Shown here: one piece after another, positions 14,165-50,686 of the stretch
Layout of the letters: the number at the start of each line of letters is the position of its first letter
Position numbering within the stretch: position 1 is the stretch's first letter
Source: Halobaculum saliterrae
GTDB taxonomy: Archaea > Halobacteriota > Halobacteria > Halobacteriales > Haloferacaceae
Direction: 5' to 3'
Length of the DNA stretch: 64,000 nucleotides
Assembly (NCBI RefSeq): GCF_009831625.1
Contig: NZ_WUUS01000001.1
Location: forward strand, 248,301-312,300
Notes under the pieces: generated by a model
The model's database searches: none
Seen by the model: only the letters and a program-made list of their open reading frames with translations
What the model was told of the DNA's origin: nothing
Made by a program: the position numbers and the translations under genes

Positions 14165-15736
14165 TCAGCGGTCGGTCAGCAGCGCACGGAGGATGTCGCC
14201 GTACGCCGGTCGGGTGATGAGCACGCCGACGAGCACTCCGAGGATCGTGAAGATGGCGAAGCCCTGGAGGTCGCCCAGCGAGAGCCACGGCGAGGCCAGC
14301 GGAGCCATCGCGACGATCGTCGTCGCGGCCGCGGCGCCGACGACCCAGAACGCCTTCCGGAAGCGCGACTGGAAGACGCGCCGGGAGTTCACGTCGCCCT
14401 CGGCCATCACCTCGTCGGCGATGATCACGAGGTCGTCGACGCCGGTCCCGATGACCGCGATGAACCCCGCGATGACCGAGAGGTCCAGCGGGTACTGGAT
14501 GAACGCCGCGAACCCGAGGAGGATCAGCACCTCGGAGAACGCGGTGACGACCATCGGCGCGGCGACCTTCGGGTCGCCGTAGCGGAAGAACACGACGCCC
14601 GCGACCGTGAGCACCGCGAGGAGTCCGATGATCAGGGAGTCGCGCTTGAAGTCGTCACCCTGTGCGGCGCTGATGGAGGTCGCGGTCCCCTCGTCGAGCG
14701 CCAGCCCCGCCGGGAGCGCGCCGGCGCGGAGGTCGACCGAGACGTCCTGCGCGCGCTCGAAGGAACCGGTGACGAGGATGAACTGCGGGTCCTGCGCCCA
14801 CTCGCCGTTTCGCATCGACTGCGCGAGCGAGGGGTTCATCCCGAACGAGGAGACGACGGTCCCGTCGCGGATGATCAGGATACACGGCTCCGTGGTGCTC
14901 GGCCCGTTCTCCTGACTGAAGGTGCAGTCGGTGCCGCCCTGTCCGGCGACGCCCGTCTCGACGAACAGCCGCTGGACGCGCTCGGCCTCGCTCTGTCGAA
15001 CCGAGACGGGGACGTTCGGGCCCGGACCCTGCTCTCCTTGCTGGGCGGTGCCGACCGTCTGGAAGTCCTCCTGCCGGATGACGGTCGTGTTCACGTACTC
15101 GGTCGTGTTGTTCCGCTGGACCTCGTGGTACGCCGCGATCTGCACCGTCCCGCGGGAGTTCACCAGGTCGCGCACCTCGCTGAGGTCGTCGTTGGGGACC
15201 TCGATGAGGACGAAGTCGCCGTTGCCGATCGTCCGGACGCTCCCGCCCGAGAGGCCGGCGGCGTTGATCTTCGACTCGAGCACCTCGATCGTCTGTTGGC
15301 GCGTCTCGTCGGTGACGCCGTCGCGGACGGTCTCGTACTCGTAGCCGGCGGCGTCGAGCGCGTTCCGGAGGTCGGCCTGCGTGGCGTTCTCCGTGACGAG
15401 TTCGACCGTCCCGCTGGAGTTCGTCGAGAAGCGGGCGATCACGTCGGAGCTGTCGCCGGTTTCCAGCTCCGCGGCGACCTGGCGTTCGACCTCGGCGGTG
15501 TCGCGACCCTCGAACTGGACCTCCTCGGCCGTGACGCCGACGAGGGGCGCCCGGATCCGCGACCCGCCAGACAACTCCAGCCCGTACTGGAGGTTCGTCG
15601 CGCTCTCCTGGGCGGCCGGTCCCTGGCTCCCGGACGGCTCGAACGCCGGCGCGAACAGGAACAGCGTCGAGAGGACGAGCATGAACACGAGCATGACGAC
15701 CCGCCAGTTTTCCTTGATCGTCTCCCAGGCGCTCAT
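14165..15736 (-). CDS. secD: Preprotein translocase subunit SecD
   Basis: 523 residues, RND-fold partner of SecF that helps Sec-dependent export in the membrane. The N-terminal helix (VVMLVFMLVLSTLFLFAPAF) is followed by the D1 motif YGLELSGGSRIRAPL. A large external domain spans about residues 60-340, and five C-terminal helices contain VIGTGVDDLVIIADEVMAEG. Archaeal gene order is kept: secF first, secD second, with ATGA overlap. Confidence 0.95.
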   Translation of the reverse strand: MSAWETIKENWRVVMLVFMLVLSTLFLFAPAFEPSGSQGPAAQESATNLQYGLELSGGSRIRAPLVGVTAEEVQFEGRDTAEVERQVAAELETGDSSDVIARFSTNSSGTVELVTENATQADLRNALDAAGYEYETVRDGVTDETRQQTIEVLESKINAAGLSGGSVRTIGNGDFVLIEVPNDDLSEVRDLVNSRGTVQIAAYHEVQRNNTTEYVNTTVIRQEDFQTVGTAQQGEQGPGPNVPVSVRQSEAERVQRLFVETGVAGQGGTDCTFSQENGPSTTEPCILIIRDGTVVSSFGMNPSLAQSMRNGEWAQDPQFILVTGSFERAQDVSVDLRAGALPAGLALDEGTATSISAAQGDDFKRDSLIIGLLAVLTVAGVVFFRYGDPKVAAPMVVTAFSEVLILLGFAAFIQYPLDLSVIAGFIAVIGTGVDDLVIIADEVMAEGDVNSRRVFQSRFRKAFWVVGAAAATTIVAMAPLASPWLSLGDLQGFAIFTILGVLVGVLITRPAYGDILRALLTDR

Positions 15737-16629
15737 CGTGCCACCCCCTCGAACTTGTACCAGCGAAGCAGCGACACGTTCAGCAGGTACGTGTTCATCA
15801 GGTCGGCAGCGAGCCCGAACACGAGGATCGTCCCGATGCTCGCGAGCAGCCCGATGCCGAAGAACGACGCGACGACCGCCATCACGGCCATCGCCGCGAT
15901 GGAGGTGAGCGTCATCGTGACGCCGGTGCGCATCGCGCGGTACGTGGACTCATAGAAGTCGCCCGAGCGCCGGAGCACGCTGTTGTTCAGGAGGATGTCG
16001 GAGTCGACGGAGTAGCCGATGAGCATCAACAGCGCCGCGACCGTCCCGAGCGTGAGTTCGATGCCGAGGAGGTTCATCAGCGCGACCGGGATGACGATGT
16101 CCGAGAACGCCGAGACCACGACGGCGATGCTCGGGACGAAGGTCCGGAACAGCGCGAACACCAGCGCGGCCATCCCGGCGAAGGCGGCGACGACCCCGAT
16201 CAGCGCGCGTTGCTGGGTCTCGGACCCGAAGGCCGCCCCGACGCCCTCGATCGACCGGACGTCGAACCCGGCCGCGTCGGCCTCCGACTCGAGCTGTCGG
16301 GTGAGCTCGCTCTGTTCGGTCTCTGATCCCTCCGTCTGGAAGGTGGCGATGTACACGTCGCTGTTCCCGACCCGCTGGATGCTGTTCGGCGTCGCGGTGA
16401 ACGCCTCGCGGATGTCTTCGCGTGCCTGTGCGTCGCTCGGGGCGTCGACGGCGACACGCATCTCCGTGCCGCCGGTGAAATCGAGCCCCGGATCGACCGG
16501 CGTACCGGTCGTCACGTACGCCCCGCCGATGACGAGGATCGCGACGGCCAACACCGCGAGCGGTATCGCGGCGAGTTGCCGGTTGGTGTACCGGGTGTAA
16601 TCGACCTCCGGTACCTCGAATCGAGCCAT
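15733..16629 (-). CDS. secF: Preprotein translocase subunit SecF
   Basis: 298 residues. The start MARFEVPEVDYTRYTNRQLA is followed by helix 1 (IPLAVLAVAILVIGGAYV) and the SecF motif DPGLDFTGGTEMRVAV. The C-terminal helices contain LLMLIGYSVDSDILLNN and MRTGVTMTLTSIAAMAV. A TATA-like box about 28 nt upstream of the ATG argues against the longer open frame that continues upstream. It overlaps secD by 4 nt. Confidence 0.95.
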   Translation of the reverse strand: MARFEVPEVDYTRYTNRQLAAIPLAVLAVAILVIGGAYVTTGTPVDPGLDFTGGTEMRVAVDAPSDAQAREDIREAFTATPNSIQRVGNSDVYIATFQTEGSETEQSELTRQLESEADAAGFDVRSIEGVGAAFGSETQQRALIGVVAAFAGMAALVFALFRTFVPSIAVVVSAFSDIVIPVALMNLLGIELTLGTVAALLMLIGYSVDSDILLNNSVLRRSGDFYESTYRAMRTGVTMTLTSIAAMAVMAVVASFFGIGLLASIGTILVFGLAADLMNTYLLNVSLLRWYKFEGVAR

Positions 16630-25711: not shown

Positions 25712-26194
25712 TCACGCGATCGGTTCGCTCTCGCCGTAGGCGGCGACGACGACCGCGGCGACGTACGCCGAGTCGTCGGTCTCGACGGTCGCACACCGGG
25801 TCCCCTCGTGGTCGAACGTCCAATCGCGGAGGTCGCGGCCGGCGTCGAGGCCGGTCGAGACGGTCTCGCGGACCGCGTCGGCGTCGCTGCCGTCGGCCTC
25901 GTAGAACAGCCCCGGACCCGGACCCGTCGCCCACCCGAGGCAGGCCGTGACGCTCTCGGTCTCGTGGGCGTCCTCCGGCGAGGCGGCCGCGTGCGCCTGC
26001 ACGACGGTGAGGCGGTCGCCGGCGGGCCCGAGATCCGGGGCGGTGTCGACGGCGCGGACGGTCGCGTCGGCGGGAACGACCGACGAGACGGTGACGAGGT
26101 TGAAGTCGCCGACGCCGGCGTCGGAGAGCGCGGCGTCGTAGGCGGCCAGCTCGGTCGGCCCCCGGCCGATGCCGTCGGCGACGTGGATGTCCAT
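25712..26194 (-). CDS. pdaD: Pyruvoyl-dependent arginine decarboxylase
   Basis: 160 residues. The proenzyme self-cleaves at the Ser-Ser of FNLVTVSSVVPADA (about residues 35-48), making the pyruvoyl group on the second Ser. It decarboxylates arginine to agmatine. In archaea agmatine feeds polyamines and agmatidine in tRNA-Ile2; that role is family knowledge. Other landmarks are VVQAHAAAS and ACLGWATGPGPGLFYEADG. A 54-bp double-hairpin repeat lies 93 nt upstream of its start. Confidence 0.92.
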   Translation of the reverse strand: MDIHVADGIGRGPTELAAYDAALSDAGVGDFNLVTVSSVVPADATVRAVDTAPDLGPAGDRLTVVQAHAAASPEDAHETESVTACLGWATGPGPGLFYEADGSDADAVRETVSTGLDAGRDLRDWTFDHEGTRCATVETDDSAYVAAVVVAAYGESEPIA

Positions 26195-26286
26195 ATCGGG
26201 AGTGGTGTGTCGGGGCGAAAGTGGGTGTCGATAGCGAGGCGTGAGGGAGTGAGCGAAGCGAACGACCGAAGGCCTCGGCGACCGGC

Positions 26287-26340
26287 GTTCACGAATCGCT
26301 GCGCGATTCGTGCGCTCATGGGACCGCAGGTCCCGTGAAC
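26287..26340. repeat. Dispersed double-hairpin repeat, copy A
   Basis: Bounded by GTTCAC and GTGAAC. Hairpin 1 has arms CACGAATCGC (26290-26299) and GCGATTCGTG (26303-26312) with loop TGC; hairpin 2 has arms CATGGGACC (26317-26325) and GGTCCCGTG (26329-26337) with loop GCA. GGCCTCG lies just upstream and GGCGAGG...GGGCCGAGCCGC just downstream. Copy B (49831-49884) has the same layout and compensatory base changes. It lies between pan and pdaD, both on the minus strand. Confidence 0.85.
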
Positions 26341-26444
26341 GGCGAGGTTCGAAGGGCCGAGCCGCTCAGAAAACAGTGAGCCGTGGGGAAGGCAACGAAA
26401 CGAGATCGAAAAACCGCCGGACGCGACCGCGAATCGGAGCCGAG

Positions 26445-27680
26445 TCAGTACTGGTAGCGACCGAACTCGCCGTCGTTGAACACCGGACCCTCGGTGTCGG
26501 TTTCGATCTTCTCGCGGGCGTCGTCGAAGTCCGCGCGGCGGACGGTCGTGCGCTCGTCGCGGATGGCGAACATCCCGGCCTCGGTCGTGAGCGCGGCGAT
26601 GTCGGCGCCCGAGTAGTCGTCGAGGTCCGCCGCGAGGTCGGCGAAGTCGACGTCGTCGGCGATCGTCATGTCGGCGGTGTGGATCTCGAGGATGCGCTCG
26701 CGACCCTCGGGACCGGGCTTGGGCACCTCGATGAGGCGGTCGAAGCGGCCGGGCCGGAGGATCGCCTCGTCGAGCATGTCGAAGCGGTTCGTCGCCGCGA
26801 TGATCCGCACCTCGCCGCGGTCGTCGAAGCCGTCCATCTCCGAGAGCAACTGCATCATCGTGCGCTGGACCTCGGCGTCGCCGGAGGTCTTCGAGTCCGT
26901 CCGCTTGGCGGCGACGGCGTCGATCTCGTCGATGAAGATGACCGCGGGCTCGCGCTCGCCGGCGAGATCGAACAGGTCGCGCACGAGGCGCGCCCCCTCC
27001 CCGATGAACTTCCGGACCAGCTCCGAGCCGGCCATCTTGATGAACGTCGCGTCGGTCTCGTTGGCGACCGCCTTCGCGAGCATCGTCTTGCCCGTGCCGG
27101 GCGGTCCGTGCAGGAGGACGCCGCTGGGTGGGGTGATCCCGACCTCGCGGAACGCGTCGGCGTTGACGAGCGGGTCCTCGACGGCCTCGCGCACCTCGCG
27201 GACCTGGTCGTCGATGCCGCCGATGTCGGCGTAGGTGACGTCCGGGGAGGCGTCGACCTCCATCGCCTGCGCGCGGGCGTCGGTCTCGTCGTCGAGCACC
27301 GTCTGCACGCTGAAGGAGTCGTTGATGGCGACCCGGTCGCCGGCCTCCAGTTCGTCCTCCAACTGGGGCGAGAGGTCGGTGAGCACCTCCTGGTTGTTGC
27401 CGTGCTGTTTGATCACCGCGCCGTCCTCGGTGAGCTCCTCGACGGTCGCGATGTACAGCGAGGCCGTCTTCAGCGCCTCGTTTCGGCGCTTGAGCTCGTC
27501 GACCTCCTCCCGAAGGTCCGAGCGGCGACTCTGAGCCTCATCGAGGCGGTCGTCCAACTCGTCGTTGACCTGGACGATCCGCTCGAAGTGCTTGCGAAGC
27601 GCCTCCAGCCGCTCGGCCTCGTTCATGTCGGGATCCAGATCGAGGCGGGGCCGGTCGGGGAGAGACGGACTCCGAGACAT
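26445..27680 (-). CDS. pan: Proteasome-activating nucleotidase (PAN)
   Basis: 411-residue AAA+ ATPase that unfolds substrates for the 20S proteasome. An N-terminal coiled coil (about residues 20-75) is followed by an OB fold, then the AAA module: Walker A GPPGTGKT, Walker B VIFIDEIDAV, SRH ATNRFDMLDEAILRPGRFDR. The C-terminus is RYQY, so the last three residues are YQY rather than a strict HbYX (Tyr is not penultimate). A TATA-like CTTTACC lies about 29 nt before the ATG. Several haloarchaea have two PAN paralogues; only one is here. Confidence 0.95.
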   Translation of the reverse strand: MSRSPSLPDRPRLDLDPDMNEAERLEALRKHFERIVQVNDELDDRLDEAQSRRSDLREEVDELKRRNEALKTASLYIATVEELTEDGAVIKQHGNNQEVLTDLSPQLEDELEAGDRVAINDSFSVQTVLDDETDARAQAMEVDASPDVTYADIGGIDDQVREVREAVEDPLVNADAFREVGITPPSGVLLHGPPGTGKTMLAKAVANETDATFIKMAGSELVRKFIGEGARLVRDLFDLAGEREPAVIFIDEIDAVAAKRTDSKTSGDAEVQRTMMQLLSEMDGFDDRGEVRIIAATNRFDMLDEAILRPGRFDRLIEVPKPGPEGRERILEIHTADMTIADDVDFADLAADLDDYSGADIAALTTEAGMFAIRDERTTVRRADFDDAREKIETDTEGPVFNDGEFGRYQY

Positions 27681-47393: not shown

Positions 47394-48110
47394 ATGAGAG
47401 TAGTCCTGTCGCTCGGCGGGAGCGTCCTCGCGCCGGAGCTCGATCCGGAGCGGGTGGCCGCGTACGCGAACGCCATCGAGCGTCTGGTCGGCGAGGGCTG
47501 TGAGCTGGGGGTCGTCGTCGGCGGCGGCGGCATCGCGCGCGACTACATCGGCGCCGCGCGGGAACTGGACGCCAACGAGGTCCAGCTCGACCAGCTCGGC
47601 ATCGACGTGACGCGGGTGAACGCTCGCCTGCTGATCACGGCGCTCGGATCCTCCGTGGACCCGTCGCCGGCCCACGACTACGACGAGGCCGCCGACGCCA
47701 TCCGCCGCGGCGACGTGTCGGTGATGGGCGGCATCACGCCGGGACAGACCACCGACGCCGTCGCGGCCGCGCTCGGGGAGTACGTCGACGCGGACCTGCT
47801 CGTGTACGCGACGAGCGCGGACGGGATCTACGACGCCGACCCGAACGTCGACGACTCGGCCGAGCAGTTCGCCGAGATGACCCCCGAGGAGCTCGTCGAG
47901 GTCATCGTCCCGATGAGCCGCGACGCCGGCGCCTCCGCCCCGGTCGACCTGCTGGCGGCGAAGCTCATCCAACGCGCCGGAATGCGGACCGTCGTCCTCG
48001 ACGGGCACGACCCCGAGGCGGTCGAGAACGCGGTACTGTACGGCGAACACACCGGGACCGACGTGGTTCCCGCCGGCGGGGAGGAGCCGACCTACTGGGC
48101 ACAGCGATGA
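47394..48110 (+). CDS. pyrH: UMP kinase
   Basis: 238 residues of the amino-acid kinase fold. The start MRVVLSLGGSVLAPELDPER, VVVGGGGIARDYIGAARELD, VMGGITPGQTTDAVAAALGE and DGIYDADPNVDD are diagnostic. It phosphorylates UMP in pyrimidine synthesis. A TATA-like GCCTTAAGAG lies about 28 nt upstream, giving a leaderless mRNA. Its stop overlaps the lysS start (ATGA). Confidence 0.95.
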   Translation: MRVVLSLGGSVLAPELDPERVAAYANAIERLVGEGCELGVVVGGGGIARDYIGAARELDANEVQLDQLGIDVTRVNARLLITALGSSVDPSPAHDYDEAADAIRRGDVSVMGGITPGQTTDAVAAALGEYVDADLLVYATSADGIYDADPNVDDSAEQFAEMTPEELVEVIVPMSRDAGASAPVDLLAAKLIQRAGMRTVVLDGHDPEAVENAVLYGEHTGTDVVPAGGEEPTYWAQR

Positions 48111-49792
48111 GCGCCGACAGCGAGGACGGAACCATCGATCCGCACGAGGTCGGAAGTCGCGGTGGCGACGACGGGGGCGACGGCGACGCGCACCACGCCT
48201 TCTGGGCCGACGAGGTCGCCGACGCGGTCGAGGCGCGCGACCCCGACGAGCCGATCGTCATCAAGGGCGGCGTCTCCCCCTCGGGCATCGCCCACATCGG
48301 CAACTTCAACGAGATCATCCGCGGCTACTTCGTCGCCGCGGTGCTGCGCGAACGCGGCCACGAGGTCCGGCAGGTGTTCACCAGTGACGACAAGGACGCC
48401 CTCCGGAAGCTCCCCCGGACGCTCGCGGACACCGACGGCGACATCGTCGAGTTGGGGGACGTGAACGCCGGCGCGCTCGGGCAGAACCTCGGGAAGCCGT
48501 ACACGGACATCCCCGACCCGTTCGAGGACGGGCACGACTCCTACGCCGCCCACTTCGCGGCGCTGCTCTCGGCCGACGCCGAGGCGCTCGGGATCCCCGT
48601 CGAGATGGTGTCCAACACGGAGCTGTACGCCGACGGCACGTTCGACGAGGTCGTCGAGCGGGTCCTGCGCAACGCCGACGCCGCACGCGACACGCTCGGG
48701 GAGTATCAGGACAAGGTCGACGAGGACTACGTTCCCTTCATGCCGCAGTGTTCCGAGTGCGGCATGCTCACACAGGACGTGATCGAGGTCGACGTCGACG
48801 CCCGCGAGGTCCACTACCGCTGCTCGGGCATCGAGGCCGGCGATCGCTTCATGGAGGGCTGCGGCCACGAGGGAGTCGCCTCCTTCCGCGAGGGCAAGCT
48901 CCCGTGGCGCTTCGAGTGGCCCGCTCAGTGGGAGGTGCTCGGCGTCGACTTCGAGCCGTTCGGGAAGGACCACGCCGAGGGCTCGTGGCCCAGCGGCGTC
49001 GACATCGCCCGGGAGGTGCTCGGGAACGATCCGCCCGTCCCGATGGTGTACGAGTGGTTCACGCTCAACGGCGAGTCGCTGTCGTCGTCGGAGGGGCACG
49101 TCGTCACGGTCCAAGAGGTACTGGACCTGATCGAGCCGGAGGTGCTGCGCTACTTCTTCGCGCGCAACCCGAAGAAGGCGAAGGACTTCGATATCGAGCG
49201 GCTGGACCAACTGGTCAACGAGTTCGACCGCTTCGAGCGGGCGTACTTCGGGGAGGAGGGCCCCGACGAGCGCTTCGCGGCGTTCGCCGAGCGGGCGTAC
49301 CCGTTCGTCGTCGACGAGGTGCGCGAGGGACGCGTCCGTCTGCCGTACACGTTCGCCGCGGTGCTGGGCATGGTCGACGACCGCGAGTTCCGGATCCAGC
49401 TCGCGCGCGACGAGGGACACTTCACCGAGGACACGCCCGAGTGGGCCATCGAGGACGCGCTGGAGCGCGTCGAGCGCGCCCGGCGGTGGGCCGAGCGCTG
49501 CGACAACGAGTACAACTACCGGCTCCAGTCGGAGTTGCCCGACCACGACTTCGACGCCGACGTCGAGGCGGCGCTGGAGGACCTCGCCGACTTCGTCGCG
49601 GATGGCCACGACGGCGAGGCGATCCAGGGCGAGATCTACGAGACGGCCCGACGCCACGACGTGGAGGTCGGCGACTTCTTCGCAGCCGGCTACCGGCTGT
49701 TCTTCGACGAGACGCAGGGGCCGCGGCTTGGCGAGTTCCTCGGGGAGTTGGAACGCGAGTTCGTCGTCGATCGACTCCGGCGCGAGGCGTGA
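48107..49792 (+). CDS. lysS: Lysyl-tRNA synthetase, class I
   Basis: 561-residue archaeal class I LysRS. The HIGH-type motif is SPSGIAHIGNFNE; a zinc-type site shows CSECGMLTQD. The second class I signature is NGESLSSSEGHVVTV, in which the KMSKS lysines are replaced (K to S and K to E). The C-terminal helical anticodon domain follows, ending GEFLGELEREFVVDRLRREA. It is translationally coupled to pyrH by 4-nt overlap. Confidence 0.94.
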   Translation: MSADSEDGTIDPHEVGSRGGDDGGDGDAHHAFWADEVADAVEARDPDEPIVIKGGVSPSGIAHIGNFNEIIRGYFVAAVLRERGHEVRQVFTSDDKDALRKLPRTLADTDGDIVELGDVNAGALGQNLGKPYTDIPDPFEDGHDSYAAHFAALLSADAEALGIPVEMVSNTELYADGTFDEVVERVLRNADAARDTLGEYQDKVDEDYVPFMPQCSECGMLTQDVIEVDVDAREVHYRCSGIEAGDRFMEGCGHEGVASFREGKLPWRFEWPAQWEVLGVDFEPFGKDHAEGSWPSGVDIAREVLGNDPPVPMVYEWFTLNGESLSSSEGHVVTVQEVLDLIEPEVLRYFFARNPKKAKDFDIERLDQLVNEFDRFERAYFGEEGPDERFAAFAERAYPFVVDEVREGRVRLPYTFAAVLGMVDDREFRIQLARDEGHFTEDTPEWAIEDALERVERARRWAERCDNEYNYRLQSELPDHDFDADVEAALEDLADFVADGHDGEAIQGEIYETARRHDVEVGDFFAAGYRLFFDETQGPRLGEFLGELEREFVVDRLRREA

Positions 49793-49830
49793 GAGGCGAG
49801 GCCGACCAGAGGGAGGCCTCGTAGAACGGC

Positions 49831-49884
49831 GTTCACAAATCGCGGAGCGATTTGTGCGCTCACGAGACCGCAGGTCTCGTGAAC
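49831..49884. repeat. Dispersed double-hairpin repeat, copy B
   Basis: Same layout as copy A: outer GTTCAC/GTGAAC; hairpin 1 arms CACAAATCGC (49834-49843) and GCGATTTGTG (49847-49856), loop GGA; hairpin 2 arms CACGAGACC (49861-49869) and GGTCTCGTG (49873-49881), loop GCA. GAGGCCTCG (49813-49821) lies upstream and GGCGAGG...GGCCGAGCCGC downstream. It follows lysS. Confidence 0.85.
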
Positions 49885-50071: not shown

Positions 50072-50686
50072 ATGCGGAAGAGCGGCCCGCCGCGTGGCCT
50101 CATCTCGTACATCGTGCTGGAACTCCTCGAGGAGAAGCCGCGGTACGGCTACGAGATCCTCAAGGAGATCACCGACATCAGCGGGGGTCACTGGGAGCCG
50201 TCCTACGGCTCCGTCTACCCCATCCTCTACAAGTTCGAGGAGGAGGGGTACGCCGAACGGATCGAGCGCGAGGACGAGCCCGACCGGAAGTACTTCGCGC
50301 TGACCGAGGAGGGGCACGACCACCTCGCGGAGAAGCGGACGGAGATCGGCGGGAACGCGCGCGACTTCGCGGACGTGATCCTGGGCTTCTATCACATGTA
50401 CGTCGCGTTCGCCACCGACGGCCGCTTCGACGTCGACCCGTCGGACGACGACTGGTGTTTCGACGACGAGTACTCCGGCTGGATCGCAGAACAGGTGATC
50501 CGCCACCACGAGCGGGACTTCGGCGAGTTCGAGCGCGTCCCCGACACCCCCGAGGAGTTCCACGCCCGCCAGGGCGACGCCGACGCTCCCGACGGCGACG
50601 GGACGGGGGACGGCGACGTGAGCGGTGACCCCGACGACGACGAACGTCCGGAGGAGGCCGCCACCGACGGCGGGACGAACGCCTGA
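50072..50686 (+). CDS. PadR family transcriptional regulator
   Basis: 204 residues. The N-terminal winged helix reads LISYIVLELLEEKPRYGYEI, HWEPSYGSVYPILYKFEEEG and YFALTEEGHDHLAEKR, a clear PadR match. A C-terminal helical region (residues about 95-165) and an Asp/Gly-rich tail follow. Ligand unknown. A TATA-like CCTTAG about 28-30 nt upstream suggests a leaderless mRNA; the dyad at 50004 is its likely operator. It converges on the PDZ-M50 gene. Confidence 0.9.
   Translation: MRKSGPPRGLISYIVLELLEEKPRYGYEILKEITDISGGHWEPSYGSVYPILYKFEEEGYAERIEREDEPDRKYFALTEEGHDHLAEKRTEIGGNARDFADVILGFYHMYVAFATDGRFDVDPSDDDWCFDDEYSGWIAEQVIRHHERDFGEFERVPDTPEEFHARQGDADAPDGDGTGDGDVSGDPDDDERPEEAATDGGTNA

Follow-up and report, generated by a model that had tools for sequence, protein, structure and literature searches.

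A 54-bp Double Hairpin of Halobaculum saliterrae as a Probable Small Mobile Repeat within Palindromes of Other Haloarchaeal Repeats

The double hairpin D, which occurs twice in the 64,000-nucleotide stretch of the Halobaculum saliterrae genome analyzed here (the window), is probably a non-coding small mobile repeat, a reading that comes from sequence comparison, and the copies in the window most likely lack any gene function of their own. The unit consists of 52 bp plus one CG, arranged as CG-TTCAC, a 10-bp hairpin with a 3-nucleotide loop, a 3-nucleotide joint, a second 10-bp hairpin, and GTGAA-CG, and would insert at a CG within one palindrome arm of another repeat. The targets would be the palindrome GGCGCT...AGC^GCC in the left ends of IS200/IS605-IS1341 elements and, in the genus, GGC^GGC...GCCGCC of a repeat designated R. 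Insertion would leave a 2-bp CG duplication or would be a clean C^G insertion, both of which fit the filled sites, and D is found in either orientation and can be gained or lost precisely.

RESULTS

Copies of D in the Window

An earlier note on this DNA, made from the letters alone, had described a double hairpin at 26287-26340 and 49831-49884; the coordinates proved exact, and folding and shuffling support the structure. The two copies and the genes beside them are as follows.

26287..26340, + strand: copy A of D, a 54-bp double hairpin (sequence, DNA fold, pattern shuffles, and absence of D from orthologous R units)
Arms 26290-26299/26303-26312, loop 26300-26302: hairpin 1 of copy A
Arms 26316-26325/26329-26338, loop 26326-26328: hairpin 2 of copy A
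49831..49884, + strand: copy B of D, a 54-bp double hairpin (sequence, fold, shuffles, and D at the same locus in genome G017)
25712..26194, - strand: pyruvoyl-dependent arginine decarboxylase family, neighbor of copy A (PF01862, 95.3 bits)
26445..27650, - strand: proteasome-activating AAA ATPase, neighbor of copy A (PF00004, PF16450; long open reading frame, start approximate)
48107..49792, + strand: class I lysyl-tRNA synthetase, neighbor of copy B (PF01921, 333 bits)
50072..50686, + strand: PadR-like regulator, neighbor of copy B (PF03551, 82.3 bits)

The pattern GTTCAC-N17-GTGNGCTC-N17-GTGAAC matches the window only at copies A and B, in each case on both strands, as expected of a near-palindromic unit, and the fixed-block pattern has 0 matches in 100 dinucleotide shuffles of the window. 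In single-strand DNA folding each copy forms two 10-bp hairpins with 3-nucleotide loops (z = -5.5 and -6.8 for A and B, respectively; equally stable shuffles, 0 of 200), and with longer flanks the fold becomes a branched, T-shaped structure. The two copies are not a product of chance. They differ at 7 of 54 positions, comprising two compensated pairs (4 bases), a one-sided change (G-T in A, G-C in B), and two first-loop bases (TGC vs GGA), whereas the second loop, GCA, and the flanks GGCCTCG and GGCCGAGCCGC are common to both. The shared features and the matched stem differences reported in the earlier note are thus borne out, with the one-sided change in addition.

Both copies are intergenic, copy A having the arginine decarboxylase gene on one side and the proteasome-activating ATPase gene on the other, and copy B lying between the genes for lysyl-tRNA synthetase and the PadR regulator. 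A terminator scan of the surroundings of copy A found 0 (0.3 in shuffles), and a T-run terminator at copy A is unlikely. It should be noted that general repeat finding in the window was swamped by GC-rich coding sequence.

The Host Repeat R and Orthologous Sites

The whole source genome (3.78 Mb, 21 contigs) contains seven strong copies of D. All seven stand after CGGC and before GGC, and six have GGCGAGG and a GAGCCGC block 3' of D. The flanks of D form a separate repeat, R, of ~82-87 bp, which is also found without the hairpins and which consists of a variable-stem hairpin (hp0) and a GGCGGC...GCCGCC palindrome. The parts of R around the window copies are listed below.

26232..26286, + strand: left part of R around copy A, hairpin 0 followed by ACCGGC (by-eye comparison with empty units of G017, G014, and G016)
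26341..26366, + strand: right part of R around copy A, GGCGAGG...CCGAGCCGC (comparison with other R units)
49793..49830, + strand: left part of R around copy B, starting right after the lysyl-tRNA synthetase stop codon
49885..49909, + strand: right part of R around copy B (sequence comparison)

D is a discrete, optional 54-bp insert in R at ACGGC^GGC. Contig C4 of the source genome has four tandem R units, all without D; locus L087 of G017 has three empty R units followed by a filled one; and the tandem units of L117 are likewise unlike in the presence of D. The arrays at L087 and on C4 (L260, ~15505-15848) are built of 82-87-bp units. The stem of hp0 varies between genomes with pairing kept (GTTGC/GCAAC vs GTGG/CCAC). 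R was also considered as an IS605 end, to which it has no likeness in sequence except for a hairpin before the site. Only one plasmid record, from Halobaculum roseum, matches D together with R.

The loci of copies A and B were compared across 11 genomes of the genus. At the copy A locus, R contains D in the source genome and is present as one or two empty units in G017, G016, and G014. In G018, a filled unit in which hairpin 1 differs accompanies three empty ones, and a complete R was not seen in the other six genomes. At the copy B locus, R with D is present in the source genome and in its nearest relative, G017, an empty R is present in G015, and a complete R was not seen in the other eight. 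Copy A shares its right flank (CGAAGGGCCGAGCCGC), with the locus-specific CGAAGGG stretch, with the empty G017 ortholog and not with the other D-bearing R units of the source genome. Locus-specific flanks thus come to within ~10 bp of D, indicating that D was gained or lost at this locus without its surroundings, and simple gene conversion between R units is unlikely for copy A. A further filled and empty pair is provided by L041 (G016) and L080 (G014), whose flanks are near-identical, the second R unit containing D in the former and lacking it in the latter. Of the relatives compared at the copy A locus, the closest in sequence, G017, is empty and the less similar G018 is filled, so that D may have been lost there repeatedly through slippage between the CGs on its two sides. 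At another orthologous pair, L119 (G014) and L125 (G017), D is present in both but the two stems differ (AAGACGC/GAGAGC vs AAATCGC/GAGACC), which reflects either replacement or two compensated rewrites.

Insertion of D in IS200/IS605-IS1341 Left Ends

A second subtype of D, GGATACAGC[D]GCCGCAC, was traced to IS200/IS605 and IS1341 left ends. All eight loci at which it was first seen have a TnpA- or TnpB-type reading frame within ~600 bp, a call based on the likeness of open reading frame starts; phmmer matches to TnpB confirm it for loci that include L051 and L062. Left ends of this type without D are found in plasmid records, and the insertion point can be aligned to the base; the empty sequence is ATACAGCGCCGCAC and the filled one is ATACAG-CG-TTCAC...GTCAA-CG-CCGCAC, which places D at ATACAGC^GCCG, within the left-end palindrome GGCGCT...AGC^GCC. 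Sixty left ends, hand-picked from blast and model hits, comprised 21 filled and 30 empty sites, with 9 classed as other or unclear, counts that should not be read as a population frequency. The palindrome arms pair at 6 of 6 positions in 21 of the 30 empty sites and, once rejoined, in 19 of the 21 filled ones. CG is present on both sides of D in all 21 filled IS sites and in 35 of 37 other copies (56/58), the right CG not being kept in the remaining two. The length of D is 54 bp in 16 of the 21 IS inserts and 53-57 bp in the rest.

After omission of 6 sites without a TnpB hit and of L206, for which the hit was weak, the 51 filled or empty sites gave a TnpB tree of 44 rows (17 filled, 27 empty). 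The 17 filled rows have D in two orientations at the one IS site, 13 vs 4. The presence of D changes 13 times on the tree, compared with a shuffled mean of 13.9, and well-supported branches force at least 4 changes, gain and loss being indistinguishable in this count. L211 and L213, a sister pair from one genome, differ in the presence of D. Other forms are seen at the D site, namely three hairpins in a row in L210 (G153) and a single 24-bp hairpin in L212 (G166), and these are possible steps in the growth or decay of D. L198 and L199 (G012), which are sisters on the TnpB tree, have the same D in two IS605-type copies, a hint that D-bearing IS copies can still move, contrary to the idea that D silences them.

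No enzyme that mobilizes D was found. The window's genome (G000) has 0 matches to Y1_Tnp, for which 6 of the 11 genomes of the genus are positive, and 0 matches to an IS left end of the D-host type; its two tnpB genes are both on contig C3, which has no copies of D. The proposition that D always lies beside tnpA or tnpB is therefore false for this genome. It follows from the lack of a Y1 transposase and of such a left end, and from the location of tnpB away from D, that the seven copies do not depend on TnpA at present for their existence, with a past need for TnpA in this genome being a possibility.

Pairing and Loop Changes

Across an alignment of 45 copies that represent several genera, 97.5% of the stem cells pair, but these rows were chosen by sequence and structure, which biases the percentage upward, and the counts of double changes relative to shuffles are a safer guide. 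Changes on both sides are found in 10 of the 20 stem pairs, and the double-change cells number 82, as compared with 27.0 +/- 3.4 in shuffles, none of 500 of which was as high; on one of five measures, that of further pair types, there is no clear excess, as 52 of 500 shuffles reach the value of the alignment. When the structure is slid, 21-49% of the cells pair. Mean column identity among the aligned copies is 83%, and a single IS site may contain wholly different stems (AGAAATC, AGAATC, AGAACGC, GAGAGC), all of which are still paired. The covariation in the stems of D is real.

The loops are nearly free, with 22 and 17 different triplets in the 45 copies. Among the 14 loops of seven orthologous pairs, 4 are unchanged, 3 are related as exact reverse complements, and 7 differ in other ways; this count omits two pairs with the second D of L041 (one with itself, one with the wrong L080 unit) and pairs with one matching flank. 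The probability of at least 3 flipped loops in 10 is 4e-4 at 1/64 and 0.024 at the observed background of 6.6%. The clearest case is that of L041 and L080, between which D has changed only in three loop bases, GGT to ACC, with the stems the same. In the pattern listing across all loci, chance matches and reverse-orientation duplicates were removed by eye.

Spacer inversion and arm homogenization are described as marks of template switching in the account of PMC8604942, and that of PMC8794818 indicates that template switching can yield compensatory changes. The matched stem changes of D look to be, at least in part, the result of arm-to-arm copying. Because template switching homogenizes arms, compensated stems can arise without selection, and compensations alone are therefore no proof of selection on RNA. 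The earlier note had taken the matched changes as a sign of selection on base pairing; the pairing and covariation have held up, but selection does not follow from them, given that 3 of 10 changed loops are exact reverse complements, which points to template switching in the DNA itself.

Distribution of D

The exact genus-type pattern matched a single record in genome contigs, that of Halobonum tyrrellensis, and is too strict to reveal spread; covariance models were therefore used, as the earlier note had suggested. Model R2 matches 76 of 392 genomes of the phylum at E <= 1e-4, including 74 of 81 in the order of the window's genome and 2 of 311 outside it (G314 and G375), where the assignment to order assumes that the genome listing is sorted by kinship and weak matches may be other double hairpins. 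An earlier family-wide count of 137 of 170 genomes was made at a low threshold, with at most 29 candidates scored in each genome; weak double hairpins are therefore among those counted, and the figure does not give copy number. Among plasmid records, 93 have IS-type matches and 33 have a Halorubrum-type unit, the named organisms among the matches listed all being haloarchaea. Viral contigs gave 0 matches to D in three scans, and phage records gave none for one IS-type query.

A longer dispersed element around D-like hairpins occurs in at least twenty copies in G146 (Halorubrum-like g21), at L065, L071, L077, L083, L089, and L101-L115. This element contains CCAAAGCCCC...CCCCTTTGAG, its outer stem covaries between copies (GTCGCGAGGACG/CGTCCTCGCGAC and others), several copies have a TATAAAT-like box upstream, and a second double hairpin (GTTCG...CGAAC) is sometimes present. 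It could be a multicopy non-coding RNA gene or a mobile element.

DISCUSSION

Mobility and Alternative Explanations

The distribution of D would result from spread, beyond loss alone, with an enzyme acting in trans that may recognize the folded DNA ends and move D, while replication template switching across the hairpins may keep the arms matched. An alternative reading is that D is old in each host repeat and is only lost, many times, by precise replication slippage between the CGs, homologous exchange among R units or among IS left ends serving to re-spread it. It is established that palindromes lying between short direct repeats can be deleted precisely, D always occupies one site per host type, and its scatter on the TnpB tree is compatible with gain or loss. 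However, the several host contexts and the two orientations imply that true insertions or inversions took place at least a few times, and the locus-specific flanks of copy A lie close to D; this explanation is improbable. The fixed site that D has in each host type could nevertheless also result from homologous copying among the host repeats. The view that D is a structured RNA or an mRNA 3'-region element, or part of one, kept by selection on pairing, likewise has little probability. It would account for the strong covariation, for the intergenic location beside gene ends, and for the related hairpins of G146, which form part of a longer conserved element, several copies of which are preceded by a TATAAA-like box. 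It does not fit with the presence or absence of D at the same orthologous places, its occurrence in IS left ends without agreement with the TnpB tree, the two orientations at one site, or the nearly free loop sequence; moreover, template switching can produce the compensations, and the window has no Rfam match at the gathering score. For nine related loci the only Rfam match is to mir-2774 (23.4 bits, gathering score 51; L077, 1849-1891), which does not overlap D.

The presence of one subtype in IS605/IS1341 left ends at 8 of 8 first-seen loci, together with the hairpins of IS605 ends and the view, as presented in PMC3733652, that REPs are moved by related enzymes, might suggest that D is itself an end derived from IS200/IS605, a PATE or REP-like unit that the Y1 transposase TnpA mobilizes. 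This is very improbable, since 30 complete left ends of the same type have no D, the genome with seven copies has neither Y1_Tnp nor such left ends and has tnpB only on a contig free of D, and the stems of D are mostly perfect, with a 3-nucleotide loop and no GTAG foot. With respect to an origin as IS or MITE ends, which the earlier note had named as a contrary outcome, D does lie inside IS605 left ends but is an optional insert within the palindrome rather than the end or the palindrome itself.

The small mobile repeat remains the preferred reading of D. A more specific and rather doubtful form of it is that D is a structure-addressed insertion element, for which a broadly conserved haloarchaeal enzyme recognizes the folded T-shape and inserts it at a palindromic CG in palindromes. 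If so, the self-complementary dinucleotide core would explain the two orientations at one site, and recognition of the fold would let template switching rewrite the stems (AAATCGC, GAGACGC, AGAACGC, AGAAATC) with mobility kept; insertion into IS605 left ends may also tame those transposons.

Relationship to Known Elements

The nearest described kind is SMR-A of Haloquadratum, of which D looks to be a shorter, order-wide, structure-conserved relative in kind. SMR-A, comprising HqIRS42, HqIRS43, and HqIRS55 of Haloquadratum walsbyi, is portrayed in PMC3119063 as transposase-free and present in many copies, with inverted-repeat ends and no clear target duplication, and its mobilization is called "enigmatic." Like SMR-A as so described, D is too short for a transposase, has inverted ends (CGTTCAC...GTGAACG), and is inserted within near-terminal palindromes of IS605-type elements, in 21 left ends in the case of D (PMC3119063). 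SMR-A has no target duplication on that account; D sites fit either C^G insertion without duplication or 2-bp CG duplication. The two differ in length, ~110 bp for SMR-A and 54 bp for D, the comparison being with the description of SMR-A rather than its sequences (PMC3119063). Furthermore, identity within SMR-A types is commonly >95%, while the stems and loops of D change freely (mean column identity as above), and D, unlike SMR-A as characterized in PMC3119063, also occupies a non-IS repeat, R, and extends across the order.

Similar comparisons can be made with other palindromic elements. The double-hairpin elements of Allomyces mitochondrial DNA (Paquin et al. 2000, as summarized in PMC2800124) resemble D in being adjacent hairpin pairs that are optionally inserted, thought to be mobile, and without a flanking duplication, but they are mitochondrial and fungal and are analogues in form; no homology is claimed. 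The REP/REPIN sequences associated with RAYT/TnpA-REP are, like D, dispersed short palindromes regarded as non-autonomous mobile DNA, but D does not have at its unit ends (45 aligned copies) the GTAG foot that PMC3733652 gives as a rule for REPs, the window's genome is without a Y1 transposase, and D is inserted precisely inside other palindromes. The palindrome-associated transposable elements (PATEs), for which a 52-bp terminal-only form is reported in PMC3119063, are also short, non-coding, palindromic, and IS605-linked; a PATE as defined there is made up of IS605-type termini, however, whereas D is inserted within a palindrome, and many complete left ends lack it. No earlier description of the D unit was found in the literature searched, which took in few subscription papers.

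Implications

With D, the transposase-free small mobile repeats of haloarchaea gain an order-wide family that has exact boundaries, an exact target, and many comparisons of empty and filled sites, and a family so defined makes the mobilization of D testable in Haloferax or Halorubrum. The stems of D also carry a warning, in that paired compensatory changes, which are usually taken as proof of a functional RNA, can stem from template switching in mobile DNA hairpins.
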